Shown here: positions 10,460-64,000 of the stretch, piece by piece
How positions within the stretch are numbered: the stretch's first letter is position 1
How the letters are laid out: every line of letters starts with the position of its first letter
Source: Salinibacterium sp. G-O1
GTDB lineage: Bacteria; Actinomycetota; Actinomycetes; Actinomycetales; Microbacteriaceae
NCBI RefSeq assembly: GCF_030063305.1
Contig: NZ_JASISV010000002.1
Location: 372,001 to 436,000 of the forward strand
Reading direction: 5' to 3'
DNA: 64,000 nt
Made by a program: the position numbers and the translations under genes
The notes under the pieces: model-generated
Told to the model about the DNA's origin: nothing
The model's input: only the letters and a program-made list of their open reading frames with translations
Database searches by the model: none

Positions 10460-10557
10460 CACCGCTGCGGTCGATTCCCGCGGTGCCATAGGCTTGACCC
10501 GCTGGGCGGGGTACGAGTGTGCCCGGCCATACGGTACAAACTGCAAGGGTGATTCAC

Positions 10558-11790: not shown

Positions 11791-11881
11791 TCAGTCGCAC
11801 GCAGGTGGGCAGATCGGTGGCTTTCCCACAGATTGCCGCTCGGCGTGAGAGTGGATGGCTCCCCCTATCCATGATGGTGGG

Positions 11882-20123: not shown

Positions 20124-20683
20124 GAGTTCACCTTTCGGTTGGTTGCCGCCTTCTCGGCGTCGCGCCATGCGCGTTGAGCTGGCGTCATTGCGCTACTTGT
20201 AGCCATAAGTGCCGGGCCCTTCCAGGCGTGACAGATGGCGATGGCAAGTGCATCCGCGGCATCTGCCGGCCGTGGCACGGCATCCAGCCCCAGCACTCTC
20301 GCAACCATCGCGCCCACCTGCCGCTTGTCTGCTGCGCCGTAGCCCGTTACTGCGGCCTTCACCTCGCTCGGCGTGTGTAGTCCCACCGCGAGCCCGCGCG
20401 ACGCGGCGATCTGCAGCGCGACGCCGCTGGCCTGGGCGGTGCCCATCACAGTTCGCAGGTTGTGCTGGGCGAACATCCGTTCCAGCCCGACAGCCTCCGG
20501 ACGGAAGTCGTCGATGACCTGGGCAATCCCCTCCGAGATCGCCAACAGGCGCCGTTCGAGAGGCAAATCCGGAGCTGTCCCGATGACGCCGACATGCACG
20601 AGGGTGACGGTGCGGGTGGATGTGACATCCACCACCCCGACACCGCATCGGGTGAGTCCAGGGTCGATGCCAAGCACTCTCAT
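20120..20683 (-). CDS. ruvC: Crossover junction endodeoxyribonuclease RuvC
   Basis: RuvC resolves Holliday junctions. The 187-residue protein has the RNase H-like active site: first aspartate in LGIDPGLTRCG (residue 7), glutamate in GLERMF, and the late aspartates in ADAADALAIAICH. Length is normal. It is the first gene of the ruvCAB operon and follows yebC by 24 bases, an arrangement common in actinobacteria. Confidence 0.96.
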   Translation of the reverse strand: MRVLGIDPGLTRCGVGVVDVTSTRTVTLVHVGVIGTAPDLPLERRLLAISEGIAQVIDDFRPEAVGLERMFAQHNLRTVMGTAQASGVALQIAASRGLAVGLHTPSEVKAAVTGYGAADKRQVGAMVARVLGLDAVPRPADAADALAIAICHAWKGPALMATSSAMTPAQRAWRDAEKAATNRKVNS

Positions 20684-20707
20684 GCTGGCACCGAAAACGT
20701 CATGCCC

Positions 20708-21466
20708 CTAGTCTTCTTCCAATTCGGCCTGCACCTCCGGCGACACGTCGTAATTCGAATATATGTTCTGAACATCATCGGAATCTTCGAGAGCGTCGAT
20801 GAGCTTCATCACCTTGCGGGCGGTCTCAGCGTCGACATCCACGGTGAGGTTGGGAACGAATTCGGCCTCCGATGAGTCGTAGTCGATTCCCGCAGCCTGC
20901 AAGGCCTCCCTGGCTGCCACGAGGTGTGCGGTGTCAGTAACGACCTCGAAGCCCTGGCCGCGGTCGTTGACCTCTTCTGCGCCGGCGTCGAGAACCGCAA
21001 TCAGGATGTCGTCCTCCGTGACGCCGTCGACCTTCGTGATCGAGATGACGCCCTTGCGGGTGAAGTTGTACGCCACGCTTCCGGGGTCGGCGAGGTTGCC
21101 GCCGTTGCGGCTCATGAGCGTGCGAACGTCTGCCGCGGCCCGGTTCTTGTTGTCGGTAAGACATTCGACGAGCAGAGCGACACCGCCGGGGCCGTAGCCC
21201 TCGTACATGATCGTCATGTAGTCGACAGCGTCACCAAGCTGGCCAGAACCACGCTTGACGGCCGAGTCGATGTTGGAGTTCGGCACCGAAGTCTTTTTCG
21301 CCTTTTGGATGGCGTCAACGAGGGTGGGGTTTCCCGATAGATCGGCCCCGCCCAGCTTTGCTGCGACTTCGATGTTCTTGATGAGTTTGGCGAACGACTT
21401 GGCACGGCGCGAATCTTTGATCGCTTTTTGGTGCTTGGTGGTTGCCCATTTGGAGTGGCCTGACAT
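20708..21466 (-). CDS. yebC: YebC/PmpR family transcriptional or translation-associated protein
   Basis: The 252-residue protein has the family start [14 protein letters not shown], the [12 protein letters not shown] segment and the [11 protein letters not shown]-terminus. YebC proteins were annotated as DNA-binding regulators; recent work links some to relief of ribosome stalling. I chose ATG 21466 because it gives the conserved N-terminus. A TAGGAT -10 box ends seven bases upstream, so the mRNA may be leaderless or nearly so. It precedes ruvC. Confidence 0.95.
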
Positions 21467-50312: not shown

Positions 50313-52781
50313 ATGGCTACTCCCGAAAACCCCACCAGCACCGCTCCCTCCGGCGAACGCATCGAAGACATCGATGTCACTACCGAGATGCAGGGATCGT
50401 TCCTTGAGTATGCGTACTCAGTCATCTATTCCAGGGCGCTGCCCGACGCGCGGGACGGCCTCAAGCCAGTGCAGCGGCGAATCCTGTACCAGATGGCCGA
50501 GATGGGCCTTCGCCCGGACCGCGGACATGTGAAGTCGTCGCGCGTGGTCGGCGAGGTGATGGGAAAGCTTCATCCGCACGGTGACGCCTCCATCTACGAC
50601 GCGATGGTGCGACTGACCCAGGAATTCGTGCTGCGCGTCCCCCTCATTGACGGCCACGGCAACTTCGGCACCCTCGACGATGGCCCGGCCGCTCCGAGGT
50701 ACACCGAGGCACGGCTGCACGCCACGGCTCTCGCCCTGACCGAGAACCTCGATGAAGATGTTGTCGACTTCATCCCCAACTATGACAACCAGTTCATGCA
50801 GCCGGAGGTGCTGTCTGCGGCCTTCCCCAACCTGTTGGTCAACGGTGCCAGCGGAATCGCTGTCGGCATGGCAACGAACATGGCACCCCACAACCTCATC
50901 GAGGTGGTGGCCGCTGCACGGTATCTGCTCGAGAATCCTGAAGCCTCCCTCGAAGACCTGATGGCCTTCGTGCCCGGGCCCGACCTGCCCACCGGCGGCA
51001 CGATCGTCGGGTTAGACGGCATCAAGGATGCCTACGCGAACGGCCGGGGCGCCTTCAAGACCAGAGCCCGCGTGTCAGTCGAGGCGATCACCGCCCGCAA
51101 GACCGGACTCATCGTCACCGAACTCCCCTTCCTGGTCGGCACCGAGCGCGTTATCGAAAAGATCAAAGACGGCGTGAACTCCAAGAAAATCAGTGGCATC
51201 TCCGATGTCACGGATCTCACCGACCGCAAGCACGGCATGCGGCTCGTCATCGGCATCAAGACCGGATTCAGCCCCGATGCCGTGCTCGAACAGCTTTATC
51301 GCCTCACCCCGCTGGAAGACAATTTCAGTATCAACAACGTCGCCCTGGTCAACGGTGGTCCGCGCACGCTCGGGCTCAAAGAGCTGCTGCAGGTGTATCT
51401 CGACCACAGGCTGAGCGTCGTTCGTCGACGCAGCCTCTTCAGACTCGCCCGACGCAAAGAACGCCTTCATCTCGTTGAGGGCCTGTTGATCGCAATCGTG
51501 GACATCGACGAAGTGATCCAGGTCATCAGGCGCAGCGACGACAGCGAGCAGGCGCGGGCCAGATTAATTGATGTCTTCGATCTCAGCGAGCTGCAGGCCG
51601 AGTACATTCTCGAGCTCCGGCTCCGCCGTCTCACGAAGTTCAGTCGCATCGAGCTCGAAACGGAGGCTGAGAAGCTGCGGGCCGAGATCGCCTACCTCGA
51701 GGCCCTGCTCGCAGATCCGGCCCGAATCGCCCAGCTGGTGTCAGATGAGCTCGAAGAGATCGCCGAACGCTTCGGAACCCCTCGGCGAACACTGCTGACC
51801 GAAGCGCGACCCTCCATTGCCACGACGGCGGCGTCCCGCAGAACCGCGGCGGTGCTGGAGATCGCCGATGCCCCCTGCGAGGTGCTGCTCTCGACCACGG
51901 GACGGGCCATCCGTGTTGACATCGCTCCAGAGGTCGCCGATGAGCCGACTGCCGAGCGTCCCGCCAGACGCCGGACCAAACACGACGCGATCCGATCGCG
52001 GCTCATCACCACGAGTCGCACCGAGATCGGGGCCGTTACCAACCTCGGTCGGCTCATCCGTTTCACCGCGGTCGACCTTCCGAGCGTGCCATCCAACTCG
52101 ATCCAGTTGGCCGCTGGCGCGAAAATCAGCGACTACCTCGCCATCGGCGGTAAAGAACGGGTGATCGGCATCGTCTCCCTCGATTCCGAGGTACCGGTGG
52201 CAATCGGGACTCGCCAGGGCGTCGTGAAACGCGTCATCCCTGCATCCTGGCCGTCACGCCCCGACTTCGACATCATCTCGCTCAAACCGCGCGACGAGGT
52301 CGCAGGGGTCGCGCACGCCAGAGACAGCGATGAGGTCGTTTTCGTCACCTCGGATGCGCAACTGCTCCGGTTCAGCTCGTCCCTCGTGCGGCCACAGGGT
52401 GTTGCCGCGGGTGGGATGGCAGGCATCAACCTGTCGAGCGCGGCGGCCGTAATCTTCTTCGGTGTCGTCGACCCCGGTCTCGACAATGTCGTGGCGACTG
52501 TCTCCACTTCCGCTGCCACGATCGCCGGCGCCGATCCCGGCCGGGCAAAGGTGTCGGTGATCGGCGAGTTCCCGGCAAAGGGTCGCGCAACCGGTGGCGT
52601 GCGGGCTCACAGCTTCCTCAAGGGCGAAGATTCGCTCGCGCTTGGCTGGGCAGGACCGTCCCCAGCCGTGGCCGTGGGAACCGATGGCTCGGTGAGACAC
52701 CTGCCGGAGACGCTCGCCAAGCGGGACGCGTCTGGCACAGTGCTCGATGGCGTAGTCGGCTCGATCGGGGCAGGCCTCTAG
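50313..52781 (+). CDS. parC: DNA topoisomerase IV subunit A
   Basis: ParC is the DNA-cleaving subunit of the type IIA topoisomerase that separates daughter chromosomes. The 822-residue protein has the catalytic tyrosine Y130 in AAPRYTEARL, the HPHGDASIYDAM quinolone-region segment (86-97) with wild-type-like Ser93, and a C-terminal beta-propeller. I see no GyrA-box (QRRGGKG-type) in the C-terminus, so I call ParC rather than GyrA. The C-terminus of a GyrB/ParE-type partner lies at the end of the window, separated by the sugar island. Confidence 0.9.
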   Translation: MATPENPTSTAPSGERIEDIDVTTEMQGSFLEYAYSVIYSRALPDARDGLKPVQRRILYQMAEMGLRPDRGHVKSSRVVGEVMGKLHPHGDASIYDAMVRLTQEFVLRVPLIDGHGNFGTLDDGPAAPRYTEARLHATALALTENLDEDVVDFIPNYDNQFMQPEVLSAAFPNLLVNGASGIAVGMATNMAPHNLIEVVAAARYLLENPEASLEDLMAFVPGPDLPTGGTIVGLDGIKDAYANGRGAFKTRARVSVEAITARKTGLIVTELPFLVGTERVIEKIKDGVNSKKISGISDVTDLTDRKHGMRLVIGIKTGFSPDAVLEQLYRLTPLEDNFSINNVALVNGGPRTLGLKELLQVYLDHRLSVVRRRSLFRLARRKERLHLVEGLLIAIVDIDEVIQVIRRSDDSEQARARLIDVFDLSELQAEYILELRLRRLTKFSRIELETEAEKLRAEIAYLEALLADPARIAQLVSDELEEIAERFGTPRRTLLTEARPSIATTAASRRTAAVLEIADAPCEVLLSTTGRAIRVDIAPEVADEPTAERPARRRTKHDAIRSRLITTSRTEIGAVTNLGRLIRFTAVDLPSVPSNSIQLAAGAKISDYLAIGGKERVIGIVSLDSEVPVAIGTRQGVVKRVIPASWPSRPDFDIISLKPRDEVAGVAHARDSDEVVFVTSDAQLLRFSSSLVRPQGVAAGGMAGINLSSAAAVIFFGVVDPGLDNVVATVSTSAATIAGADPGRAKVSVIGEFPAKGRATGGVRAHSFLKGEDSLALGWAGPSPAVAVGTDGSVRHLPETLAKRDASGTVLDGVVGSIGAGL

Positions 52782-52823: not shown

Positions 52824-52851
52824 TTGACAGGTCGTCAGACGGTGGTAGGTT
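52824..52851 (+). promoter_or_regulatory. Promoter of the ROK regulator operon
   Basis: A perfect TTGACA at 52824-52829 is followed by a 16-base spacer and TAGGTT at 52846-52851. Transcription would start near 52858, so the operator at 52859-52874 lies at the start site. Confidence 0.7.
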
Positions 52852-52858
52852 ACGGGGA

Positions 52859-52874
52859 TAGTAAAGTTTCCTAA
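52859..52874. promoter_or_regulatory. ROK operator, left copy
   Basis: TAGTAAAGTTTCCTAA matches the right copy (63780-63795, minus-strand reading) at 14 of 16 positions. Both are near-palindromic, with AGTAAA-type half sites as in other ROK regulators. It lies between the promoter and the ROK start codon, which suits autorepression. Confidence 0.75.
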
Positions 52875-52890
52875 CCACGCTGGGGTAGCC

Positions 52891-54060
52891 ATGGCACGGC
52901 CTTCCGAAAGTCCTCCCTCCCCCGCCACACCGGGGCTGCTTCGATCGATCAATGACCGAGTGGTGCTCGAGCTCCTGATCACGCATCCGACCCTGAGTCG
53001 CGGTGACGTTCGCCGTCTCACCGGGGTGTCGAAACCGACCGCATCGCAATTGCTCTCCCGCCTCGAGGAAAGCGGTCACGTCGTGCAGAACGGGGTCGAG
53101 GAACACAACCGCGGCGGCCGCGCCTCGGCCATTTACGAACTCAATCCGCGCGCCGGGTTCGCTGCCGCAATCAATGTGACCGCGACCGGAACCCATGCCC
53201 GGGTTGCTGACCTTCGCGGCACTGTCATCGGCGAGCACCGGGACCCAGGCGAATCCGGGCCCGAGACCGCCATCACCTCGCTCAGATACGCCCTGTCCAC
53301 GGCCGAGCTCGAGATGACCGACCTGACGTCTATCGTCGTTAGCCTGCCGGGATCCTACGATCCGGATGCCGACACCCTGCGGTTCGCCGGGCACCTCCCC
53401 CGCTGGCAGCAGCCCGGCCTCGTTGAGGGCCTTGAGGCGATCACGGGCGTCGAGACACATATCGAGAACGACGTCAACGTCGTCGCCATGGCGGAGCAAC
53501 AGAGTGGTGCGGTTCGAGGGGAGAGTGATTTCTTCCTGCTGTGGAGCGACGAGGGTATCGGTGGCGCGCTCATGCTCGGCGGTCGCATCCACCGCGGAAG
53601 TACGGGAGGCGCCAGCGAGGTGGCCTTCCTGCCCGTTCCCGGGGTTCCCATCGTGCGCAACCCAGCGCGAGAAAACCACGGTGGATTCGACGACCTCGCC
53701 GGTGTCGCGCAGGTCGTCGAGCTGGGGGCCAGGCACGGCATCCACGCCGACAGCGCTGCCGAGATCGTGGCATCCGCCGTGGCATCCGATGCACACGGCT
53801 TCCTCGACGAACTCGCCGGCCGGTACGCGCCGGCACTCGCGACCATCATTGCCCTCATCGACCCGCCGGTGATCGTGCTTGCGGGCGCCGTACTGAACGC
53901 TGGCGGACCAGGTTTGCTCGACCTCATCCGGGACCACGTTGATGAGGTCGCAATTCGTACTCCGCGGTTCGCCGCCCGAGAGGTCATTGACGATCCAGTT
54001 GCGGCGGGTGCCCTGCTGGTCAGTCTCAATCACACCCGCAACGCGGTGTTCAGCACATGA
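52891..54060 (+). CDS. ROK family transcriptional regulator
   Basis: The 389-residue protein has an N-terminal winged helix (about 14-75; LSRGDVRRLTGVSKPTASQ recognition region) and a C-terminal sugar-sensing ROK domain with EGIGGALMLGG. The usual ROK zinc motif (CxCGxxGCxE) is absent: the matching region reads ENHGGFDDLAG and has no cysteine. The EVGH-type catalytic histidine is also lost, so it should not be a kinase. It probably represses the island by binding the two operators until a sugar is bound. Confidence 0.92.
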   Translation: MARPSESPPSPATPGLLRSINDRVVLELLITHPTLSRGDVRRLTGVSKPTASQLLSRLEESGHVVQNGVEEHNRGGRASAIYELNPRAGFAAAINVTATGTHARVADLRGTVIGEHRDPGESGPETAITSLRYALSTAELEMTDLTSIVVSLPGSYDPDADTLRFAGHLPRWQQPGLVEGLEAITGVETHIENDVNVVAMAEQQSGAVRGESDFFLLWSDEGIGGALMLGGRIHRGSTGGASEVAFLPVPGVPIVRNPARENHGGFDDLAGVAQVVELGARHGIHADSAAEIVASAVASDAHGFLDELAGRYAPALATIIALIDPPVIVLAGAVLNAGGPGLLDLIRDHVDEVAIRTPRFAAREVIDDPVAAGALLVSLNHTRNAVFST

Positions 54061-54152
54061 AGATGGTCGGCGGCGGAGCATCCACATACACTCCCGAGTT
54101 CGCCGCGGCGCTGGAAAACACGCAACGACAGTTTGGAATATCACGTGGATGA
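54057..54152 (+). pseudogene. N-terminal remnant of a GH4-like glycosidase
   Basis: A 31-codon frame starts at an ATG that overlaps the ROK stop (ATGA) and ends at a TGA just inside the Gfo/Idh gene. Its product begins MKMVGGGASTYTPEFAAAL, close to the N-terminal nucleotide-binding motif of GH4 6-phospho-glycosidases (GGGSTYTPEL). Nothing of the rest of GH4 remains. It is either a decayed gene or a small coupling peptide between the ROK and oxidoreductase genes. Confidence 0.5.
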
Positions 54153-55032
54153 CATCAGATGGGGTCTCGTCGGCACAGGGTTCTGGGCGCGAGAAACACA
54201 CGCGCCGTCGATTGCTGCGACTGCCGGGGCTACTCTGGCGTCGGTATGGGGCCGCGACCCGGAAGCCACCGGCCTGCTCGCCGACGACTTCGCCGCCCGG
54301 CCGTTCTCTGACGTTGATGCATTTCCCGATTCGGTCGACGCGGTGAGCTTTGCTGTGCCTCCCCACGTGCAGAGCGAGATTGCACTTAAGGCGATTCGTG
54401 CGGGCAAGCATGTCCTTCTCGAGAAGCCAATTTCGGTGTCGCTCGCGGCAGCCAACGAACTCGTCGCGGCGGCCGAAACCAGCGGCGTCTCCACAACCGT
54501 GTTCTTCACGTTGCTGTTCGACCCCCGGATGCGCGCTATCAACGCGAACGCCGAGATCGACGCGTGGTCGGGGGCCCAGGGGCTTTGGCTCGGTTCCGCA
54601 CTGATGGACGAGAATCCGTTCAACACACCCTGGCGCCACGAGAAGGGTGCGGTCTGGGATTTGGGCCCGCATGCCGTCTCCGTTCTGGTTACCACCCTTG
54701 GCCCGATCGTCAACGTGTCCGCGACGGCGGGCGAGCAGGGCCTCGTCCACGCCCAGTTCACGCACGCCAGCGGGGCCACCAGCACGGCCACGATGACACT
54801 GTTCGCGACCGAGGCTGCCGATGGATTCTCCACTCTCATGTGGGGCCCGAACGGCAGACAGTGGCTCCCCGTCGACGATGTCGATGAACAGGCGGCAATG
54901 CGACTGGCGCTCGCCGAGCTGGTCGACAACATCCGAAACGAACGCACGCAGCACCAATGCGATCTGTCATTCGGACGCGACATCGTTGCAGTACTCGCGG
55001 CGATCGAATCCGGGCTCGCGAGCCAACCATGA
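54145..55032 (+). CDS. Gfo/Idh/MocA family oxidoreductase (first)
   Basis: The 295-residue protein has an N-terminal Rossmann fold (WGLVGTGFWARE), the EKPISVSLAAA motif near residue 95, and a C-terminal domain with VWDLGPHAVSVL. Members oxidise or reduce sugars and cyclitols with NAD(P). GTG 54145 gives the normal start and overlaps the GH4-like remnant; TTG 54133 is less likely. It ends with an ATGA overlap with the dehydrogenase gene. Confidence 0.87.
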   Translation: MDDIRWGLVGTGFWARETHAPSIAATAGATLASVWGRDPEATGLLADDFAARPFSDVDAFPDSVDAVSFAVPPHVQSEIALKAIRAGKHVLLEKPISVSLAAANELVAAAETSGVSTTVFFTLLFDPRMRAINANAEIDAWSGAQGLWLGSALMDENPFNTPWRHEKGAVWDLGPHAVSVLVTTLGPIVNVSATAGEQGLVHAQFTHASGATSTATMTLFATEAADGFSTLMWGPNGRQWLPVDDVDEQAAMRLALAELVDNIRNERTQHQCDLSFGRDIVAVLAAIESGLASQP

Positions 55033-56045
55033 GATCTCTCGACATCACCTTTCCGCAACCTCGCGTCGTTCAGGTGGCGTCCAACGATGTCGCGGAACCG
55101 GGCGAGGGTGAACTACTCTGCGAGGCGCGAGTCTCACTCCTGAGCACCGGCACGGAAACCTTCTGTCTCGCGGGCGAGTTCGACGACGGCACCTTCTGGC
55201 AGGAGTGGGTCACCTTCCCCTTCTCGCCCGGGTACTCCATGACGTCGGTGGTCGTAGCCGTGGGGCCGGGCGTCACTCGCTACGCTGCGGGAGACCGCGT
55301 AGCAAGCCAGACACCGCACGCCCAGCGCTTCACCGTGCCGGTGACACAAGCTGTGCCAGTTCCCGACGACATCACGGATGATCAAGCCGCCTGGATCTCG
55401 CTCGCGTGCACGACGCAGCTTGGGGTCCGCCGGGCCGAACTTCAGCTTGGAGAGACGGTGGGCGTGATCGGGCTCGGTCTTCTCGGACAGCTGGTGGTGC
55501 AGTACCTGTCGATTGCCGGAGCCGGGCGCACCGTGTGCATCGACCCCTCGGCGGAGCGCCTCGGGCTTGCCGGTGTCAGCGGCGGCAGCGATCTGATTTG
55601 TGCAGACGCGGGTGCTGCGAAAGCCGAGATCGCCGAGCTGACCGGCGGTCGAATGCTCGATGTCGTCTTTGATGTCACCGGGCATCACTCAGTCCTCGCG
55701 CCGGCATCCTCGTTGTTGCGGCCGCGGGGACGCCTGATACTGCTCGGCGACAGTCCCTCCCCCAGTCGTCAATCGCTCGGTCCGCGGATTGTCGCCGATT
55801 CGATCTCCATCCTCGGCGTGCACGGCTCGAACGCCCCAGAGCAGGCGACGCTGAGCGACCCCTGGACCCTCGAGGCGATGACCGAGCTTTTCTTCCATTT
55901 TCTGCGGAAGGGACGAATGAACGTCGACTCGCTGGTGTCACACAGGTTCACTCCGGATCAAGCCCCCGAGGTGTACGCGATCCTGCAGCAGGATCGGTCA
56001 GCGTATCTCGGCACCCTCTTCGACTGGACGGACATAGCGACGTGA
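55029..56045 (+). CDS. MDR superfamily dehydrogenase without clear zinc ligands
   Basis: The 338-residue protein has a medium-chain dehydrogenase fold: a GroES-like N-terminal domain and a Rossmann domain with GVIGLGLLGQLV. The classical GHE zinc motif and the structural four-cysteine lobe are missing, so zinc may not be used. MDR proteins next to Gfo/Idh proteins are seen in several sugar-oxidation loci, but the substrate is unknown. It is coupled to both neighbours by ATGA and GTGA overlaps. Confidence 0.82.
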   Translation: MRSLDITFPQPRVVQVASNDVAEPGEGELLCEARVSLLSTGTETFCLAGEFDDGTFWQEWVTFPFSPGYSMTSVVVAVGPGVTRYAAGDRVASQTPHAQRFTVPVTQAVPVPDDITDDQAAWISLACTTQLGVRRAELQLGETVGVIGLGLLGQLVVQYLSIAGAGRTVCIDPSAERLGLAGVSGGSDLICADAGAAKAEIAELTGGRMLDVVFDVTGHHSVLAPASSLLRPRGRLILLGDSPSPSRQSLGPRIVADSISILGVHGSNAPEQATLSDPWTLEAMTELFFHFLRKGRMNVDSLVSHRFTPDQAPEVYAILQQDRSAYLGTLFDWTDIAT

Positions 56046-57019
56046 ATGAGGCGGTGCGGTGGGGAATTCTCGGTGCAGCCGGGATTCTCGAAGCGTCAGC
56101 GCCCGGAATCGCCCTCGCCCGGAACGCTACGCTCGTCGCGATCGCCAGCCGCTCGCAGTCCAGGGCAGACAATGCGGCGACCAGCTACGGTGCTCACCGC
56201 GGAATCGCCGGCTACGAGAGTCTTTTGGCCGACCCGGAGATCGAGGCCGTCTACATCCCCGTACCGAACTGGCTGCACCACGAGTGGGTGCTGAAGGCCG
56301 CTGAGGCTGGCAAGCATGTTCTCTGCGAAAAGCCCTTGGCCGTGACCTCGGCAGAGGCGAGGACGATGATCGACGCCTGCACCTCGGCGGGAGTGTTGCT
56401 CGGCGAGGCGTACATGTATGCCCACCACCCGCGCTTCGACCGGATGATCGAGATCATCGCATCGGGCGAGATCGGAACGCCGCGAAACATCATCACCACC
56501 TTTTCCTTCGATGCGAGCGCTGACCTCGATCACTCCGGCTTCCAGGGCCATCCCGGCAGCGGTGCGGTCTATGACGTCGGCGGCTATGCGATTCATTCGG
56601 CGCGGTTGTTTTTCGGCGCAGAGCCCGTCGCTGTCACCGCGCGATCGGCGATGTCTGAGCTGCACGGCAATATCGATCTCGCCACCTCGGCGCTGGTGGA
56701 ATTTCCCGGTGCGACCCTGCTGTTTCACGTCGACATGGCGGGTGCTGACACAGACACCATCGAGGTGATCGGAACTCGCGGAAGAATCAGGGTGCCTCAC
56801 GCATTCCTGTGCGCGCCTGGACAGGGCGACTTCTTCGTGAATGATCGGATCGAGTCGGTGCCTGAGACGAACCATTATGTTGCTCAGGTCGAGCGATTCT
56901 CGCGGGCTGTGCGTGGTGAGCAGCCTTGGCGCTACAGCGCCGACGAGCCGTGGCGGATGGCGCGGGCACTCGAGGCGACATCGCAGTCGTACCGGCGTTC
57001 CGAGCGAATCACGCTCTAG
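56042..57019 (+). CDS. Gfo/Idh/MocA family oxidoreductase (second)
   Basis: The 325-residue protein starts with GTG 56042 (GTGA overlap) and shows WGILGAAGILEAS, the lysine motif CEKPLAVTSAEA (about 96-107), a YMYAHHPRFDRM segment and the AVYDVGGYAIHSARL motif. It shares little sequence with the first Gfo/Idh protein beyond the fold, so the two may act on different intermediates. Its end overlaps the GH84 gene by four bases on the other strand. Confidence 0.88.
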   Translation: MNEAVRWGILGAAGILEASAPGIALARNATLVAIASRSQSRADNAATSYGAHRGIAGYESLLADPEIEAVYIPVPNWLHHEWVLKAAEAGKHVLCEKPLAVTSAEARTMIDACTSAGVLLGEAYMYAHHPRFDRMIEIIASGEIGTPRNIITTFSFDASADLDHSGFQGHPGSGAVYDVGGYAIHSARLFFGAEPVAVTARSAMSELHGNIDLATSALVEFPGATLLFHVDMAGADTDTIEVIGTRGRIRVPHAFLCAPGQGDFFVNDRIESVPETNHYVAQVERFSRAVRGEQPWRYSADEPWRMARALEATSQSYRRSERITL

Positions 57020-58320
57020 CGCTCAAACTCGCGCGCGAAGTCGGACAAAAACATGTCGACCAGATCGCCATGCACACGAAGGCGATGGCTGCGCAGGTGT
57101 GTGAGAGCCGCCATCACTCGAGCCCGTCCGGCCGGGAGAATCTCGCCCTGCCCCATAATCTCGGCGCACAGCGCGATCGCGCTGGCCGCACGCTCGTACT
57201 GATCGACCCACGGCTCGACCTCGGCAGCGAGGGCCCGATTGAAGATGGTCCTCATGTGGGACGCGACAACGCCAAGCTCCGCCGCGACGTCGCCGAGTTC
57301 TGCCACCGCCACCGCACTATCCCCAAACGAATAGTCAAAGGCGAACCGCTCGAGACGCTCGGCCAGCCGCGGCGAGTCGTCGGTGCAGAGCGCCGAGCCT
57401 CGGAGCGCATCAGCGAAAGCGCGCACCGTCTCGCGGTCGGCACCGGCAACGAGCTCTATCGCCCGCTCCCAACTCTGCTCGGGCTGGTAGGCCTCCGGAT
57501 CGGCCAGATAGTCCGCGATAGAGGCGAACGCGATCTTGGATGCTTCTGGGTATGGCATGGCGTTGGCGATGATGCCGCGTGATGCCGATCCCAACGAGCC
57601 ATCCCGCCCGAGGTAGGGCCCGACATGAAGCTCGTGGGTCATCGCGACGTCGTTCACCGGGAAGTTGTCCCAGTACAGCGGTGGATGCCCCGTAGCCGCC
57701 TCGAACCGCTCGGCGTCGACCGTCTCCAGCACGGGTGAGCAGATCGCGCGCCCCGTGAAGAAGATGTCGATTGTGGGATCAATGCCTCGCCCCAGTTGCG
57801 ACAGGTACGGCTCATCACCGCGACCCCAGTAGGTTGTGGGAGCCACCATGAGCTCACCATCGAGCAACGGATGGAGCTGACGGATCAGGGTTATCTGTGC
57901 ATCCACCAGCGAGGCAAACACATCCGCGTCTTCGGGATGTTGCAGTGACGCGGGGATGTCGTCGAGAAGAAGCGCGAAACTGGACACTCCCAGTTCCGAG
58001 ACCTGCCGGTACTTGGCGATCAGGAGATCCCGATCGCTGGCGCTGGAGTATCGCATCGACAATCCGGGCGACAGTGCGAAGGTGAATGTCACGCCGCTCT
58101 GCACGCATGCATCGACCAATTCCCGCAATCGCCGCAGGGCATCCCGATCAAACTTCTTGCGCCAATCGCGGCGCAGGAAGGCGTCATCCTTCGGTCCGTA
58201 GACGTACGTGTTCATACCCAGGCGCCCGATGAAGCCGATCATGTCCAGCCGCTGTTGGTGGGTCCACGGCGTGCCGTAGAAACCCTCGATAATGCCGCCG
58301 ACAGCGAAGGGGCTGGTCAT
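57016..58320 (-). CDS. GH84 beta-N-acetylglucosaminidase (O-GlcNAcase-like), cytoplasmic
   Basis: The 434-residue protein has the GH84 catalytic domain: GIIEGFYGTPW (about 9-19), K44 in YGPKDD, the catalytic aspartate pair D120-D121 in LLLDDI, and N218 and N222 in YWDNFPVND. These match the active-site residues of GH84 enzymes that remove beta-GlcNAc by substrate-assisted catalysis. There is no signal peptide, so it works inside the cell on an imported or endogenous substrate. The C-terminal 140 residues are helical. It is the last gene of the kinase-SIS-GH84 operon, joined by ATGA overlaps. Confidence 0.92.
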   Translation of the reverse strand: MTSPFAVGGIIEGFYGTPWTHQQRLDMIGFIGRLGMNTYVYGPKDDAFLRRDWRKKFDRDALRRLRELVDACVQSGVTFTFALSPGLSMRYSSASDRDLLIAKYRQVSELGVSSFALLLDDIPASLQHPEDADVFASLVDAQITLIRQLHPLLDGELMVAPTTYWGRGDEPYLSQLGRGIDPTIDIFFTGRAICSPVLETVDAERFEAATGHPPLYWDNFPVNDVAMTHELHVGPYLGRDGSLGSASRGIIANAMPYPEASKIAFASIADYLADPEAYQPEQSWERAIELVAGADRETVRAFADALRGSALCTDDSPRLAERLERFAFDYSFGDSAVAVAELGDVAAELGVVASHMRTIFNRALAAEVEPWVDQYERAASAIALCAEIMGQGEILPAGRARVMAALTHLRSHRLRVHGDLVDMFLSDFAREFER

Positions 58321-59063
58321 AGGGATCTCACACGGGATCGGTAACGCTCCAGAGTGGCCTGGTTCTGACCGTCACCATCGAGGACATTACTGCTGGTGAA
58401 CACGGCGGGCTGCGCACCCGCCTGCGCCACCTTCATCGCGGCTGTCATCGCCAGCAGGTTCACGATTGCTGAACCCATCACCGTGGACGTCGGGCCCATC
58501 GGCCGGTCGACACCGGAGACCTCGATGGCAGCGTCACCGGGTACCCCACCGTTATCGATGACAAAGCGAGCGAGCTGATGGATGCCCGCCACGGATGACC
58601 CGCGGGACGTTGCCGAGGTGGCGTGCGCCACGCTGACCAGGGCAATCGTCGCCATCCCAGCATCATTGGCGAGCTGTGTCAGCTCCCGCGCGATGACATT
58701 TGAGCCCGAGTTCGAGATCACGAGCAGAGTGTCTGTGGGGCGGGCATCCATCCTGGCGAAGATCACCGGGCCCAGGCCCGCCGTTCGCTCCATCGAGGTG
58801 CTCAGCTCGGCACCGGCATGAAGCAGCAAGCCCTCGATCAACACGGGGTTGACCGCACCGAGACCACCAGCTCGGTAAAACAGCTCAGCGGCGAGAAGAT
58901 GAGAGTGTCCGGTGCCGAACACGTGCAGCATGCCGTCAGCCGCGATCGAGTCAGCGATGGCCTGCGCCGCATCCTCGATGATCTTCGCCTGGTCGGCGAG
59001 CCGTTCGAGCTGACCAACCAGATGGGCTGTGTAGTCGGCAAGCGGATCGGTCGTTGGGCTCAT
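58317..59063 (-). CDS. UPF0309-type SIS domain sugar-phosphate protein
   Basis: The 248-residue protein has an SIS fold: HVFGTGHSHLLAAE early, LLVISNSGSNVIARE near residue 110, and a VMGSAIVNLLAMT segment. UPF0309 proteins resemble sugar-phosphate isomerases. As I recall, one Streptomyces member, NagS, has been reported to dehydrate GlcNAc-6-phosphate, which would fit a partner kinase and GH84. That link is an inference here. It overlaps the kinase and GH84 genes by four bases each. Confidence 0.85.
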   Translation of the reverse strand: MSPTTDPLADYTAHLVGQLERLADQAKIIEDAAQAIADSIAADGMLHVFGTGHSHLLAAELFYRAGGLGAVNPVLIEGLLLHAGAELSTSMERTAGLGPVIFARMDARPTDTLLVISNSGSNVIARELTQLANDAGMATIALVSVAHATSATSRGSSVAGIHQLARFVIDNGGVPGDAAIEVSGVDRPMGPTSTVMGSAIVNLLAMTAAMKVAQAGAQPAVFTSSNVLDGDGQNQATLERYRSRVRSL

Positions 59064-59989
59064 GGGCTACTCCATTTACTGATGAACTGCTCGTAGACGG
59101 CCGGAGCTCCCCTTGACGCGAGCTCGAGCGCTCCGTCGAGCGGGGCACCCGCTGCCGCCACGAGTACCAGTCTGGCCTCTTCTCGCACGCGCCGCTCGAT
59201 CTCGATTCTCAGTGGCGTTCCCGGCGATGCCGCGCGACCCAGTAGTACGGCGGGAACCGGTTCCGGCTCGCAGACCGACGCCGCCGCCAGGGTGGTCGCC
59301 ACCAACTCGCGGGCGGGCTCCCGCACGATCGTGGTCGCGACGTGGTCTCCCGCCCGAGCATGGTCCTGAACAACCGAGGCAAATTGGGCGATGTCGTTCA
59401 CCGGACGCTCCCGGGCGTGCACCCTCGCCGCGAGCTGATGAATCGGGCCGAACCGCTCCTGGGCGGCGACGGCCAGCGTCGTCTCGCCCCCTCTGCCGTC
59501 GCCAGAGGCCAGCGCCGCAGCGAGGCCGCGACGTCCGATCCAGAAAGATCCACCATTGTCACCGAGCAGGATCCCGTCGCCGTCCACTCGCCGGACACGC
59601 CCGCTGCGTGCGTCGACGGCGAGGCACGCGACTCCCGTGCCCACGGCCAGCACCACGCCGTGGTGCTCGGGCAAAGCAGCGAGGTGGGCGGTGATCTCAT
59701 CACCCACGAGCCAGACCTCTTTTGCTCCCGTTTCCGCGAAGAGGGCGCGTGCAAGTTTGTTCAGGGTGGGTTCATCAGCGGGCATGGTCGTAATGCCGAG
59801 GACGATCCTGCCCACCGCGTCGTCGGGTTGGCGAAGCCGAGCCCACGCTTCAGTCACCGACGCCACCAGCAGACGTACCGGATCGCCATCGGTGTGGGCA
59901 ACGCCATCGCTCACGGCCATTTCTGCTCGTCCAACGACACTGAGCCGAACCTGCGACTGGCCCCCATCGACCCCGATGTCAACCTTCAC
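59060..59989 (-). CDS. BadF/BcrA-type N-acetylglucosamine kinase-like protein
   Basis: The 309-residue protein begins DIGVDGGQSQ, with the phosphate-1 motif, and has LGDNGGSFWIGRRG near residue 143, corresponding to the NAGK GDEGSxxWIG segment. This matches the ASKHA-fold GlcNAc kinases of the BadF/BcrA group rather than the ROK kinases. It probably phosphorylates GlcNAc set free by GH84. The GTG start follows GGCGG. It is the first gene of a kinase-SIS-GH84 operon. Confidence 0.82.
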   Translation of the reverse strand: MKVDIGVDGGQSQVRLSVVGRAEMAVSDGVAHTDGDPVRLLVASVTEAWARLRQPDDAVGRIVLGITTMPADEPTLNKLARALFAETGAKEVWLVGDEITAHLAALPEHHGVVLAVGTGVACLAVDARSGRVRRVDGDGILLGDNGGSFWIGRRGLAAALASGDGRGGETTLAVAAQERFGPIHQLAARVHARERPVNDIAQFASVVQDHARAGDHVATTIVREPARELVATTLAAASVCEPEPVPAVLLGRAASPGTPLRIEIERRVREEARLVLVAAAGAPLDGALELASRGAPAVYEQFISKWSSP

Positions 59990-60066
59990 GAAACGCCGCC
60001 CCGTCGCCGTTGCCGAGTCATGGCGCGAGAGTATCTAGGCTGAGAGCACCCGACGGAAGGACTGTT

Positions 60067-60672
60067 ATGCCGCACATTCGGCAGTATGAAGCGCACGATC
60101 ACGACAGCCTCTACGAGGTGTGCCTGCGCACTGGTGCTAATGGCGACGACGCGACCGGTCTCTACCAGGTACCCACCATCCTGGGTGAGGTGTACGTCGG
60201 ACCGTACCTCGAGTTCCATCCCGATCTTTCCTGGGTCATCGACAACGACGGCACCGCGTCCGGATATGTGTTGGGCGCCCCTGACACGAAGGCTTTCGAA
60301 TCCCGCTGCGAAAGCGAATGGTGGCCGCAATTGCGGGAGCGGTATCCGCTGGGAAGTTTCGCGCCGGACTCGCTCGACGAAGAAGTCGTCGGCGATATCC
60401 ACGTCCCCCCGCGTGCTGACCAGCGAGTGGCCGCGGCGTATCCGGCTCACTTGCACATCGATCTCGCGCCGGAGGTGCAGGGCTTGCGCCTCGGCGGAGC
60501 TCTCATCAGTGTTCTGCTCGACACCCTGACGGCGCGGGGCGTCGCCGGAGTACATCTTGGCGTAGCAACCGCAAACACGCGGGCGCTGGGCTTCTACCAG
60601 CACCTCGGATTCGCTGTGCTGAGTCACGACGAATCCGGAACGACGATGGGCAAACTGCTTCCGCCCACATGA
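60067..60672 (+). CDS. GNAT protein resembling the O-GlcNAcase C-terminal domain
   Basis: The 201-residue GNAT-fold protein starts MPHIRQYEAHDHDSLYEVC, has GYVLGAPDT near residue 75 and the acetyl-CoA segment GLRLGGALIS near residue 140. The N-terminal pattern is that of bacterial GNAT proteins that share a fold with the HAT-like C-terminal domain of human O-GlcNAcase. Whether it acetylates is unknown. I use ATG 60067, after AAGGA. It lies between the ABC genes and the kinase operon and is the only plus-strand gene of that part. Confidence 0.8.
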   Translation: MPHIRQYEAHDHDSLYEVCLRTGANGDDATGLYQVPTILGEVYVGPYLEFHPDLSWVIDNDGTASGYVLGAPDTKAFESRCESEWWPQLRERYPLGSFAPDSLDEEVVGDIHVPPRADQRVAAAYPAHLHIDLAPEVQGLRLGGALISVLLDTLTARGVAGVHLGVATANTRALGFYQHLGFAVLSHDESGTTMGKLLPPT

Positions 60673-60686
60673 AGACACCCGTCCAC

Positions 60687-61544
60687 CTAATGCACCGAAC
60701 CTTCGGTGATGCCGTTGATTACCTGGCGATGAAACACCACATAGATCCCCACCATCGGGATGGTGATGATCGACAGTGCAGCGAAGAGGGTCGGGTAGTC
60801 CGTCGAGTACTTTCCGGTGAAAGCGAGCAGACCGACGGGGATCGTGCGCAAATCATCGCTCTGGATGTACAGCGTCGCGAGCAGAAACTCGTTCCACGCG
60901 CTCAGCACCGAGAAGGTGGCCACCGTCGCAAGCCCTGGGCGCATCAGAGGCAACACGATTTGGGCCAGAGTCCGGAAGTCGCCGGCCCCGTCGATGCGGG
61001 CGGCCTCAAATAGTTCGCGCGGGAGTGAGTCGAGATAGCCCTTGAGCAGAAACACGGCCAGCGAGAGTCCGAGCCCGATGTACGGCAGGATCAGGGCCCA
61101 GCGGGTATCGAGAATGTAGAAGGCATCCAGGAGGCGGCTCTGGGCTGTCAGGTAGCTCTGGACCGGAAGCAACAGGCCCAGCAGGAACGGGAGCAACAGC
61201 CATTTACTGAACCGAAACTTCAGACGGCTGAACGCGTAGGCCGCGAGCAGGCCGAAGACCAGGATGCCCGACACCGACGCCACCGTCGTGATGACGCTGT
61301 TCACTGCGTAGACGCCAAGGTCGCCGCGCTCCCATGCATTGGTCCACACCGTGAAGTCGAGCGAGGTCGGCAGTGCAAACGGGCTGTCGAAAATCTCCCG
61401 CTTCGACTTGAACGACGAGACGATCATCCACACCAGGGGAAGCACAAAAAACAGAGAGACTGCCGTCAGCACCGAGTGATAAACAATCGCGCTGATCCGC
61501 GGACTCAACCGGGCTCGCCGTGGACGGGTGTCAGTATTCAACAT
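60687..61544 (-). CDS. Carbohydrate ABC transporter permease (second, MalG type)
   Basis: The 285-residue protein has six helices and the EAA motif ELFEAARIDGAGDFRTLAQIVLPLMRP split over residues 191-217 (ELFEAARIDGAGD then FRTLAQIVLPLMRP). It forms the membrane channel with the upstream permease of a CUT1-type sugar importer. It overlaps that permease by 14 bases. No ATPase gene is here; a shared MsiK-type ATPase is usual in actinobacteria. Confidence 0.92.
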   Translation of the reverse strand: MLNTDTRPRRARLSPRISAIVYHSVLTAVSLFFVLPLVWMIVSSFKSKREIFDSPFALPTSLDFTVWTNAWERGDLGVYAVNSVITTVASVSGILVFGLLAAYAFSRLKFRFSKWLLLPFLLGLLLPVQSYLTAQSRLLDAFYILDTRWALILPYIGLGLSLAVFLLKGYLDSLPRELFEAARIDGAGDFRTLAQIVLPLMRPGLATVATFSVLSAWNEFLLATLYIQSDDLRTIPVGLLAFTGKYSTDYPTLFAALSIITIPMVGIYVVFHRQVINGITEGSVH

Positions 61545-62415
61545 CGACTCCCCCGACCTTGGAACGAATGCGAGCGAAAATCAGGCCGAGAGCCAGAACC
61601 ACAATCGTCATGATCGTCGCCAGCGCCGCGCCATAGCCCAGATTGTTGAAGCGGAACACCACCTCGACGAGGTAGGTGGTCACGATTTCGGTCGCATGGT
61701 CCGGGCCGCCGTTCGTCATCACGTAGAAAAGATCGAAGCTCTGGAATGCGCCCGTGACGCACAGCAGCACCGCGATCTCGATCATCGGCCGAATCATCGG
61801 CACCTTCACCGAGAAGAAGATTCGCCACTGCGATGCTCCGTCGAGCGTGGCGGCTTCGACGATATGTGTCGGGATGCGTTGCAGAGCCGCAAAGAAGATC
61901 GCCATGTAAAAACCGGCGTAGATCCAGCCGGAGACGACGCTGATCGCGATGAGCGCAGTTGCCGGATTGCCCAGCCACACCAGTGCAAGCGCGTCGAATC
62001 CGGTGCTCCTCAACGCCGTGTTGATCAGGCCGATGTCGTCGCTGTACACGAACGACCACAAAACGGCGATGACGACCATCGGCAGCATCACCGGCACGAA
62101 AAACGCGATGCGATAGAAGGCCGTTCTGCGGCCCTGCATTGTCACGACGCCCGCCATCACGAGCCCGACGGCCACCTCAAGGATGAGCGTGAGCGCGATG
62201 TACCCGAAGGTGTTCCGGTACGCCGTGAGATAGATGTCGTCACGGAACGCGCGGGTGAAGTTGTCGATGCCCACGAAGACCATCTGGTTGGTCCCAGACC
62301 AGTCGACGAAACTGAGGCCGGTGTTGAGCAGCGCCGGCAGCAGCACGACGAACGCGAACACCAATACGGCCGGTGCAACCAGCAGGTACGGCGTCCAGAC
62401 CCTGTCGGATTTCAC
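61531..62415 (-). CDS. Carbohydrate ABC transporter permease (first, MalF type)
   Basis: The 294-residue protein has an N-terminal VAPAVLVFAFVVLLPALLN helix, the WLGNPATALIAI segment and the EAA motif HIVEAATLDGASQWRIFF near residue 195. It starts at GTG 62415, after AAGGG, which fits the MalF N-terminus better than the longer frame. A hairpin lies in the 65-base gap between it and the binding-protein gene. Confidence 0.92.
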   Translation of the reverse strand: MKSDRVWTPYLLVAPAVLVFAFVVLLPALLNTGLSFVDWSGTNQMVFVGIDNFTRAFRDDIYLTAYRNTFGYIALTLILEVAVGLVMAGVVTMQGRRTAFYRIAFFVPVMLPMVVIAVLWSFVYSDDIGLINTALRSTGFDALALVWLGNPATALIAISVVSGWIYAGFYMAIFFAALQRIPTHIVEAATLDGASQWRIFFSVKVPMIRPMIEIAVLLCVTGAFQSFDLFYVMTNGGPDHATEIVTTYLVEVVFRFNNLGYGAALATIMTIVVLALGLIFARIRSKVGGVDVEY

Positions 62416-62441
62416 AGCAGTTGGCCCTTCTCGACGCGGAT

Positions 62442-62475
62442 GTTGTGCGGGGACCGAAAGGGGTCCCCGCACAAC
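62442..62475 (-). promoter_or_regulatory. Stem-loop between binding-protein and permease genes
   Basis: A 14-bp perfect stem (arms GTTGTGCGGGGACC and GGTCCCCGCACAAC) with a 6-base loop lies just after the binding-protein stop. It has no T run, so it is not a simple terminator. It could protect the upstream mRNA and make the binding protein more abundant than the permeases, as in malE-malF. Confidence 0.65.
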
Positions 62476-62480
62476 TCTTG

Positions 62481-63758
62481 CTAACGGATCTCGGCTATCC
62501 GCTTCTCCGCTGTGTCCAGGGCATCCTGCACGTTGCCACCACCGATGATGTTGGCAACCGCGTCGTAGAACGCCGCTGCCACCTCGATGTCGTAGCCGCT
62601 GTCTGACGGTGCAACAACCGTCGGTGCCGTCGACATGAGGGTCGCGAGCGACACCGTCCGTTCGTCAGCATCGACCCCGTCGAAGGGGTCAATTGTCATC
62701 GGTGCAAGGCCCGCCTGCGCCCACAACTTCGTTCCCTCTGCCGATGCCACGAGCTCGAGGAAGTCCATCGTCTCCGCGATGTGCGCCGACTTGGCGTTCA
62801 CCATGAATCCCGTCGAGATACCGAGCACGCTTTCCTGGTCACCTGCGCCGTCAAGGGCAGGGGTGTTGAAGTAGTCGAACTCGAGGCCTTCGCCATCGGT
62901 TTGTGCGTCGGCCATGAGCCAGCTTCCGATGACGATCATGGCGGCGCGCCCCAGGAAGAATTGCGTATTTGCCTCATCGTCAGGCAGCGCGTTCACGCTG
63001 TCGTTGATGTAGCCTTCGCGGGCGATCTCGGCCAGGTAGCCCATCGCGTCGACCATCTCCGGTGAGTTCATGGGCGCTTCGCCGTTCATCGTCTCGGCGT
63101 AAACGTCTTCGCCGACGACTCGCGAGGCGATGTGTGAGGCCCAGTTGCCCACGGTCCACTGATCCTTATTGCCCTCGACGATCGGGGTCACACCGGATGC
63201 CTTGATTGCGGCGCAGACATCCATGAATTCGTCCCAGGTCGTGGGGACGTCGAGCCCCAGATCGCTGAAGATCGTCTTGTTGTACCACACGATGTCTGTG
63301 ACGTCACCGGTCCACGGCACCATATAGATTCCCGAACCGTCGACATCCATTCCGGTGAAGGCGCCATCGTCGAAGCGGCCGTCGAAAGCATCGCCCGAGA
63401 GGTACTCGCTGATATCGGCGCCGTCCCCGTCCGCGACGTGATTGCGCATGCGTGGGCCCGACCACTCAAAGTATGCATCCGGGGCTTCGCGGCTGGACAA
63501 CAGGGTGGACAGCCCCGTCGTCTGGTAGACGTCGTCTTCCTGCACAATTATTTCGACCGTGCGGTCCGGGTACTTCGTCTCGTACTGAGTCTTCAGGGTG
63601 TCGAAATTGCTGTCCACAGCATCCCCGGAAGCGCCCATGGCGATCCGGATGACGACGTCAGAACTGGATGCTGGCGCACAGCCCGACACGGCAAGGGCGA
63701 GAGTGACACCAATTGCGGCTGCAGTCATTCCTGGTTTGAGCACGTTCCGTATTGCCAC
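62481..63758 (-). CDS. Sugar ABC transporter substrate-binding lipoprotein
   Basis: The 425-residue protein has a lipoprotein signal with lipobox LAVSGC and Cys27 as the lipidated residue, then a type 1 solute-binding fold with aromatic residues (YFEWSGPRM, WTGDVTDIVWYN) typical of carbohydrate-binding CUT1 proteins. The GTG start at 63758 follows GGAGG. It heads the importer operon and is preceded by a promoter and a ROK operator. Confidence 0.92.
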   Translation of the reverse strand: MAIRNVLKPGMTAAAIGVTLALAVSGCAPASSSDVVIRIAMGASGDAVDSNFDTLKTQYETKYPDRTVEIIVQEDDVYQTTGLSTLLSSREAPDAYFEWSGPRMRNHVADGDGADISEYLSGDAFDGRFDDGAFTGMDVDGSGIYMVPWTGDVTDIVWYNKTIFSDLGLDVPTTWDEFMDVCAAIKASGVTPIVEGNKDQWTVGNWASHIASRVVGEDVYAETMNGEAPMNSPEMVDAMGYLAEIAREGYINDSVNALPDDEANTQFFLGRAAMIVIGSWLMADAQTDGEGLEFDYFNTPALDGAGDQESVLGISTGFMVNAKSAHIAETMDFLELVASAEGTKLWAQAGLAPMTIDPFDGVDADERTVSLATLMSTAPTVVAPSDSGYDIEVAAAFYDAVANIIGGGNVQDALDTAEKRIAEIR

Positions 63759-63779
63759 GAGTCGACCTCCGGTGCGATG

Positions 63780-63795
63780 TTAGTAAACTTTACTT
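63780..63795. promoter_or_regulatory. ROK operator, right copy
   Basis: Read on the minus strand this is AAGTAAAGTTTACTAA, a near-palindrome that matches the left copy (52859-52874) at 14 of 16 bases. It sits 22 bases before the binding-protein start and just after its promoter. Confidence 0.75.
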
Positions 63796-63805
63796 CCGTA
63801 GCCAG

Positions 63806-63834
63806 AGTGAACTGCCATTTGCGCTGGATGTCAA
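63806..63834 (-). promoter_or_regulatory. Promoter of the ABC importer operon
   Basis: On the minus strand TTGACA (63829-63834) and TTCACT (63806-63811) are spaced by 17 bases. The -35 is perfect and the -10 is imperfect. The start would be near 63799, so the right operator lies at about +4 to +19. Confidence 0.6.
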
Positions 63835-63865
63835 TGTTTCCGTCGCGAGTTGACGGACTTGTAAC

Positions 63866-63891
63866 AAAGAAATCGGCCCGTCAAGGGGCCG
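63866..63891 (-). terminator. Intrinsic terminator downstream of parE
   Basis: A 6-bp CGGCCC/GGGCCG stem with a 6-base loop is followed on the minus strand by ATTTCTTT. It lies 14 bases after the parE stop and separates parE from the importer promoter. Confidence 0.6.
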
Positions 63892-63905: not shown

Positions 63906-64000
63906 TCAGACGTCGATGCGGTCCCTGTTGAGCCCGTTGCCCGCAATGATGAACTCTTTGCGCGGGGCGACGTCGTTGCCCATGAGGAGCTCGAAAACCG
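63906..64000 (-). CDS. parE: DNA topoisomerase IV subunit B, C-terminal end (partial)
   Basis: The last 31 codons read FELLMGNDVAPRKEFI and continue to the stop, which is the conserved C-terminus of the GyrB/ParE family. It is cut by the window edge. Since parC lies at the other side of the sugar island, the partner is most likely parE, though gyrB cannot be excluded from this fragment alone. Confidence 0.8.
   Translation of the reverse strand, partial: VFELLMGNDVAPRKEFIIAGNGLNRDRIDV

Follow-up and report, generated by a model that had tools for sequence, protein, structure and literature searches.

We analyzed a block of eleven genes in the last ∼11 kb of a 64,000-nucleotide stretch of Salinibacterium sp. 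G-O1 DNA (Microbacteriaceae; contig NZ_JASISV010000002.1), referred to here as the window. All eleven genes lie between parC and parE, in a genome of 3.14 Mb. An earlier note on this DNA, made from the sequence alone, had described a sugar island centered on a cytoplasmic GH84 enzyme under a ROK repressor, and profile matches were obtained for every family that it had named. The genes form two blocks arranged tail to tail. The rightward block, on the plus strand, consists of a ROK-family regulator with a winged helix (52891 to 54060; PF00480, E value of 6e-24, plus MarR_2), a first Gfo/Idh/MocA oxidoreductase (Gfo/Idh 1; 54133 to 55032; PF01408, E value of 3e-23), an MDR oxidoreductase of the zinc-type alcohol dehydrogenase superfamily (55029 to 56045; PF00107, E value of 7e-18), and a second Gfo/Idh/MocA oxidoreductase (Gfo/Idh 2; 56042 to 57019; PF01408, E value of 2e-25). 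The leftward block, on the minus strand, runs from the sugar-binding lipoprotein of an ATP-binding cassette (ABC) importer (62481 to 63758) through two CUT1-type permeases matching PF00528, one of the MalF/UgpA type (61531 to 62472) and one of the MalG/UgpE type (60687 to 61544), to a BadF/BadG-type amino-sugar kinase (59060 to 59989; PF01869, E value of 9e-18), a UPF0309 protein with a SIS domain (58317 to 59063; NF002805, 241 bits against a cut-off of 135), and a cytoplasmic GH84 beta-N-acetylglucosaminidase of 434 amino acids (57016 to 58320; PF07555, E value of 3e-91). A GNAT protein of the O-GlcNAcase (OGA) C-terminal-domain type (60067 to 60672, plus strand) is encoded on the opposite strand between the permease and the kinase, 77 bases from the kinase gene and 14 bases from the permease gene. 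Adjacent genes of an operon share 4 to 14 bases, with the exception of an 8-base gap 3′ of the binding-protein gene, and where the two blocks meet, at 57016 to 57019, the Gfo/Idh 2 and GH84 stop codons overlap. The starts of Gfo/Idh 1, MDR, and GNAT were picked by comparison with relatives, that of Gfo/Idh 1 with the related locus L004. No gene for an importer ATPase was seen within the block.

Conservation of the island and its kinase-SIS-GH84 core

With the window proteins as queries, the same genes in the same order were found at four other loci (L004, L005, L007, and L012; L005 is on the same contig as L102), and a portion of them on L006, a short contig. The closest GH84 found, with 75% identity, was that of L004, from a Salinibacterium bin (Microbacteriaceae). 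The gene grouping thus recurs in related genomes; by the terms of the earlier note, failure to recur would have counted as a refutation. The proposal of a cytoplasmic GH84 serving an internal or imported N-acetylglucosamine (GlcNAc) glycoside within one co-regulated island is supported.

A 16-bp near-palindrome occurred exactly twice in the window and was absent from shuffled sequences. One copy (AGTAAAGTTTCCTAAC; 52860 to 52875, plus strand) precedes the ROK gene, with a promoter-like TTGACA/TAGGTT pair recognized by eye just upstream, and the other (AGTAAAGTTTACTAAC; 63779 to 63794, minus strand) lies 5′ of the importer operon, before the binding-protein gene. The element was present at both promoters in L004 and L005; in L007 and L012, it precedes the ROK gene, and the binding-protein gene is preceded by the reverse complement. 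We infer that the ROK protein binds this putative operator, through which it would repress the operons of the dehydrogenases and of the importer alike. An extra copy was noted in L012 at 18110, before the gene of a secreted-looking protein of at least 868 amino acids (18702 to 21305) whose sole Pfam name is a weak propeller repeat; this protein might belong to the same regulon, hinting at a substrate outside the cell. Overall, to judge from sequence comparison, the block is a real, conserved, and co-regulated amino-sugar island.

Hidden Markov models built from the relatives and run over all loci detected a conserved core, in which the genes for a BadF-type kinase, a UPF0309 SIS protein, and a cytoplasmic GH84 follow one another on one strand and in one order, in both Microbacteriaceae and Clostridia. 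The loci sampled were the 80 best of 216 GH84 relatives, a choice biased towards the window. Eleven loci were dropped and 69 were usable, comprising 67 in which the sequence extended 2.5 kb or more upstream of GH84 and the shorter loci L008 and L009, which were kept because both genes were visible and so add a slight bias for the triad. Kinase and SIS genes together accompanied GH84 at 19 of the 69 loci (6 in Actinomycetota and 13 in Clostridia), the kinase gene alone at 19, the SIS gene alone at 9, and neither at 22. A quick tree of 92 GH84 rows placed the window in a clade of 11 rows, all SIS linked (support of 92), and contained a Clostridia clade with 23 of 30 rows SIS linked and an uncultured-actinobacteria clade in which 16 of 23 rows had GH4 no more than 6 kb away. 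The SIS label clustered by descent in this tree, and hence these counts represent few events. A different arrangement was observed in L054 (1105 to 8650) and 15 further loci of uncultured actinobacteria, in which GH4, BadF kinase, and GH84 genes stand in a row without a SIS gene; ROK and importer genes lie upstream where the contig extends, and an SGNH-like esterase gene was seen by eye downstream in L054.

Within the family, GH84 was detected in 13 of 150 genomes (window genome included) and the triad in five of these 13 (G000, G082, G145, G041, and G095). The 20-kb loci of the other eight GH84 genes contained no SIS or kinase match; five of these eight genomes encode a GNAT of this type elsewhere. 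The triad was also present in L096, in L097, which belongs to the genus of the window, and in L104. These three loci have an importer and a GNAT gene and lack orthologues of the MDR protein and Gfo/Idh 1; a Gfo/Idh 2-like gene was found in L096 and L097 and a remote MDR relative (38 bits) in L104. An importer adjoined the triad in L004, L005, L007, L009, L012, L096, L097, and L104. No copy of the 16-bp operator was seen in L096, L097, or L104, where the triad lies beside a GntR/HutC-type regulator (identified by profile scan in L097 and by eye in L096 and L104). TGGTCTA-type half-sites numbered three, three, and two beside the regulator in L096, L097, and L104, respectively, and three, four, and two over the whole 19.9-kb loci. 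The NagR operator is given as GTGGTCTAGACCAC in the part of PMC4333415 used here, and the half-sites make NagR-type control of these three loci likely.

Assignment of the island proteins

Membership of the glycosidase in GH84 was clear (PF07555, 306.3 bits against a cut-off of 25). The earlier note had stated that it has no signal peptide; inspection by eye agreed, and the barrel match begins near residue 5. The best solved relative was 5diy (E value of 4.5e-70), which we take to be the OGA of Thermobaculum terrenum. The active-site motifs align with those of characterized enzymes, and opposite the catalytic pair Asp120-Asp121 stand the Asp pair of BT_4395 and, in the 5diy chain, Asp119 and an Asn at position 120; the roles of these residues were taken from a portion of PMC4683255.

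The GNAT protein gave its top solved matches with 4bmh (E value of 4e-40) and 3zj0 (E value of 2e-37), presumably SsAT and OgpAT, followed by OGA C-terminal domains, human included (E value of 6e-18 for 6r45). By this likeness, each half of the animal enzyme, the GH84 domain and the acetyltransferase-like domain, has a relative in the island. The canonical GNAT acetyl-CoA loop is Q-x-x-G-x-G. Among 17 GNATs aligned, the fourth-place glycine of the loop was lost only in the window protein and in that of L004 (7661 to 8251; QGLHLG), and L005, L007, L012, and L097 keep it. Loss of this glycine may mean that the GNAT is impaired at these two loci. According to the part of PMC3919268 consulted, the human OGA loop is also atypical at this site and a small-molecule acceptor has been suggested for SsAT.

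In each of the five triad genomes of the family, a GNAT gene lay at most 5 kb from GH84. A general genomic link between the two was not found: 43 of the 150 family genomes have the GNAT, 13 have GH84, and 10 have both. Five standalone GNAT loci were read by eye (L112, L113, L114, L116, and L117; L115, L118, and L122 were left out of this reading); four had housekeeping neighbors, while L114 differed in having a GH3-like glycosidase and importer genes at least 3 kb from the GNAT. A GH84 gene near a GNAT gene of the OGA C-terminal type is already known from one lineage, Oceanicola granulosus, in the account excerpted from PMC3814719. There, OgpAT lies directly downstream of OgOGA and the function of the pair is not known, whereas the island GNAT lies within a unit of importer, kinase, and SIS genes; what is new here is the setting in a catabolic island.

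Two solved relatives were found for the SIS protein, 3cvj and 9eol (SCO4393, also called NagS). SCO4393 is described as a Streptomyces GlcNAc-6-phosphate dehydratase in PMC12680351, a paper drawn on here in part and likewise for all that follows on NagS. Over 231 aligned residues, the window protein and SCO4393 share 34% identity, and the two agree at eight of the nine residues tested in that paper (H53, S54, R64, S91, E94, S119, S121, D179, and N228), S91 being Thr in the window protein. NagS orthologues are reported to be limited to Streptomycetaceae and to lie beside dmdR1, with an identity floor of 58.7%, whereas the window gene has 34% identity and its neighbors are the kinase and GH84 genes. 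We did not name the window protein NagS because GlcNAc-6-phosphate dehydration was absent or negligible in three homologues of 26 to 36% identity from outside Streptomycetaceae (PMC12680351). Among the 150 family genomes, 36 had a UPF0309 match over the cut-off, and in at least 10 of these 36 a UPF0309 gene was seen by eye no more than 15 kb from a match to nagA or nagB, among the matches listed.

The kinase matched PF01869 with 65.2 bits (cut-off, 31.5), and its best solved relative was 8zo3, an N-acetylmuramic acid (MurNAc)/GlcNAc kinase (E value of 2.5e-12); the NagK equivalog model NF046058 gave 63.1 bits against a cut-off of 370. Chitin- and xylo-oligosaccharide binding proteins were among 27 solved relatives of the importer binding protein. 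For the three oxidoreductases, only generic matches were found in NCBIfam and among solved structures.

The earlier note had stated that nagA and nagB are absent from the window. This agreed with the open reading frames examined, but two matches to nagA that pass the cut-off are present in the rest of the genome, as is a nagB-like gene, which lies ∼10 kb from the nagA other than the one that adjoins a second UPF0309 gene. The curated nagB cut-off was passed by 54 of the 150 family genomes. A pathway without nagA and nagB was thus rejected, and the unit of GlcNAc release, one kinase, and three dehydrogenases suggested earlier gives way to a core of kinase, SIS protein, and GH84. The second UPF0309 gene is part of another amino-sugar island of the same genome (L111, G000:C1:1001000-1018000; 2418 to 11896), which encodes an RpiR-type regulator with a SIS domain, the UPF0309 protein, a BadF kinase, a DUF5107/TPR protein, and NagA, together with importer genes recognized by eye.

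Proposed route and its alternatives

Taken together, the observations make it probable that the island imports short beta-GlcNAc glycosides and breaks them down in the cytoplasm as amino-sugar catabolism, with chitobiose, chitosan oligomers, and GlcNAc-MurNAc all counted as candidate substrates under this judgment. The binding protein and two permeases, energized by an ATPase encoded elsewhere, would import a short beta-GlcNAc glycoside, from which the cytoplasmic GH84 would split off GlcNAc. The BadF-type kinase would make GlcNAc-6-phosphate and perhaps also phosphorylate the other half at position 6, the SIS protein would act on a 2-acetamido-hexose-6-phosphate by the C3 chemistry of its family, and NagA and the NagB-like enzyme, encoded elsewhere, would complete the breakdown. 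GH84 needs a 2-acetamido group, and the GNAT may re-acetylate de-N-acetylated units and so enable attack by GH84.

In Streptomyces, DasABC/NgcEFG-type importers for chitobiose or GlcNAc work together with an intracellular N-acetylglucosaminidase and NagK-NagA-NagB. The island resembles that system in the sequence of ABC import, intracellular beta-N-acetylglucosaminidase, kinase, NagA, and NagB, and, as regards L096, L097, and L104, in the half-sites of NagR type next to the triad. It differs in its GH84 glycosidase, its BadF-type kinase, the presence of SIS and GNAT genes in the unit, its ROK control, and a binding protein that falls under the NgcE cut-off. No description of the island was found among the top titles and abstract openings listed in literature searches, which were limited to open-licence papers.

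Several observations weigh against catabolism by this route. The nagB-like match of the window genome scored 213 bits, under the curated cut-off of 236.9, and the binding protein scored 83.7 bits with the NgcE equivalog TIGR03851, far under its cut-off of 399.65. No GH18 match was found in the window genome, in a search confined to that chitinase family, so that any chitobiose would have to be supplied by other organisms or released by a chitinase of a different family. Nor does a route for chitobiose obviously require the SIS protein, and the dehydrogenases are left unexplained. Neither a kinase nor a SIS gene was present at the 22 usable GH84 loci mentioned above, mostly those of more distant GH84s, and the scan with hidden Markov models found no importer, ROK, or GNAT gene of these families near the Clostridia triads. 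The L097 regulator passes no NagR model, and no full dre palindrome was found in L096 or L097, L104 having a single copy that carries two mismatches and lies away from the regulator. Finally, the loop of the window GNAT reads QGLRLG and so departs from the canonical form, which would argue against an active acetyltransferase in the window.

Two of the alternatives are finer readings within amino-sugar catabolism. The first is salvage of a peptidoglycan disaccharide, for which the known gene set is murQ-murK-nagZ. The island shares with that set a SIS protein, a MurNAc/GlcNAc-type kinase, and a beta-N-acetylglucosaminidase but differs in that its SIS protein is not MurQ and its glycosidase is of GH84. 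GlcNAc-MurNAc would be imported, GH84 would replace NagZ, the kinase would be MurK (a protein dealt with in the part of PMC10465942 used here), and the SIS protein would be a MurQ-like etherase removing lactate from MurNAc-6-phosphate. We regard this as possible, though rather unlikely. It would explain the SIS gene beside those for the kinase and glycosidase; the nearest solved relative of the kinase is a MurNAc/GlcNAc kinase, PMC12680351 relates the SIS family to MurQ, and the lack of a GH18 match fits as well. In the window genome, the best of three matches to the MurQ model TIGR00274 scored 32.7 bits against a cut-off of 302, and none was at the island. At an E value of 1e-20, no MurQ was found in nine distinct Microbacteriaceae genomes with the triad (G000, G082, G145, G041, G095, G150, G152, G153, and G154; G151 holds the G041 contig). 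However, MurQ is missing from most genomes of the family anyway, being present in 31 of 150 and in none of the five triad genomes among these. In Clostridia, a true MurQ was found in 9 of 22 genomes with a SIS gene next to GH84 and in none of six with GH84 and no adjacent SIS gene (22 of the 23 SIS-linked loci were counted, L020 being the same bin as L026), which argues against simple replacement and weakens the SIS protein as a plain MurQ substitute. MurQ was present in seven of the nine Clostridia genomes whose SIS-GH84 pair has no adjacent kinase gene (L014, L015, L016, L019, L023, L026, L031, L035, and L037) and in 2 of 13 with the kinase gene (L013, L018, and similar loci), a contrast that may simply reflect different clades.

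According to the second finer reading, the island serves chitosan or chitobiose use and the SIS protein is a NagS-like GlcNAc-6-phosphate dehydratase on an overflow or signal branch beside the main route. The eight identical residues of the nine tested, as set out above, speak for it. The inactivity of the three homologues, the restriction of NagS orthologues to Streptomycetaceae beside dmdR1, and an identity that falls in the range of the inactive homologues (PMC12680351, in the part cited) speak against it, and we regard it as unlikely. Action of GH84 and the GNAT on the cell's own O-GlcNAc proteins, as proposed for T. terrenum, whose OGA likewise has no signal peptide and is tied to an OGT homologue within a putative O-GlcNAc system (PMC4683255, from the portion used), would suit the closeness of GH84 to 5diy and the OGA C-terminal type of the GNAT but is very improbable for a GH84 gene that sits among importer, kinase, and SIS genes of sugar catabolism with an operator common to sugar genes.

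A broader and more speculative suggestion is that the BadF kinase-UPF0309-GH84 triad constitutes a catabolic route not yet described and common to Actinomycetota and Clostridia. Its SIS protein would catalyze a new type of C3 elimination; it might, for instance, serve as an alternative etherase for MurNAc-6-phosphate or as a lyase of some other GlcNAc-6-phosphate substituted at 3-O. The pairing of GH84 and the GNAT within such nutrient islands would reflect the metabolic function that the two domains first had, before they became fused in animal OGA, the GNAT re-acetylating glucosamine units for GH84. We put this combination forward only tentatively.

Gene loss, insertion site, and implications

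In L004, L005, L006, L007, and L012, the two genes upstream of Gfo/Idh 1 encode a GH4 enzyme and a second BadF kinase and immediately follow the ROK gene (the L006 contig ends before ROK), and in L004, L005, L007, and L012 the dehydrogenase genes stand within a row of ROK, GH4, second kinase, Gfo/Idh, MDR, and Gfo/Idh. The corresponding gap in the window holds a 31-codon open reading frame (54057 to 54152, plus strand) in which ∼15 residues matching the GH4 start are joined in frame to ∼15 residues matching the end of the second kinase, with a loss of ∼2.15 kb relative to the relatives. No GH4 match was found in the whole window genome, and 53 of the 150 family genomes have one. By this comparison, the window island has lost GH4 and the second kinase by an in-frame deletion, although the scar might conceivably be an assembly error. 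Because in the relatives GH4 and the second kinase share an operon with the dehydrogenases, the latter may form part of a branch left incomplete in the window. The solved structures nearest to the L004 GH4 were 6-phospho-beta-glucosidases, its only NCBIfam matches were alpha-galactosidase and alpha-glucosidase models far under the cut-off, and the second kinase was nearest to a solved MurNAc/GlcNAc kinase.

The island is flanked on the left by parC (50313 to 52781, plus strand; an 822-amino-acid open reading frame of the DNA topoisomerase IV subunit A type), which shares 86% identity with the corresponding island flank in L004, and on the right by the 3′ end of parE (63906 to 64000, minus strand; stop at 63906 to 63908), which runs past the window end. 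Just past the window, beyond parE, a gene for a sugar-transfer associated ATP-grasp protein (PF14397; L003, 2540 to 3541) adjoins parE. A ParE search of 31 genomes gave a match in 30, and 28 remained once the window genome and G012 (a gyrase-like match only) were left out. parC was found within the 1.5-kb flanks of parE in 17 of these 28; 14 of the 17 pairs were convergent, as in the window, and 3 were on the same strand with parC upstream of parE. This closeness of the two genes supports the earlier description of an insertion between them. The island occupies the convergent parC-parE gap in the window, L004, and L005. No parC or parE was present within the 21-kb loci of L007 and L012, which carry the island elsewhere.

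A patchily distributed, relocating amino-sugar catabolic unit is the best explanation of the island, and the scar and the differing island sites among relatives show trimming and relocation of a pathway. UPF0309 proteins tested outside Streptomyces were inactive on GlcNAc-6-phosphate (PMC12680351, in the part drawn on), and the recurring triad says where to look for their reaction, between an amino-sugar kinase and a beta-N-acetylglucosaminidase. The island also places relatives of the two animal OGA domains, of which the acetyltransferase-like one has an unsettled function, in a metabolic context.

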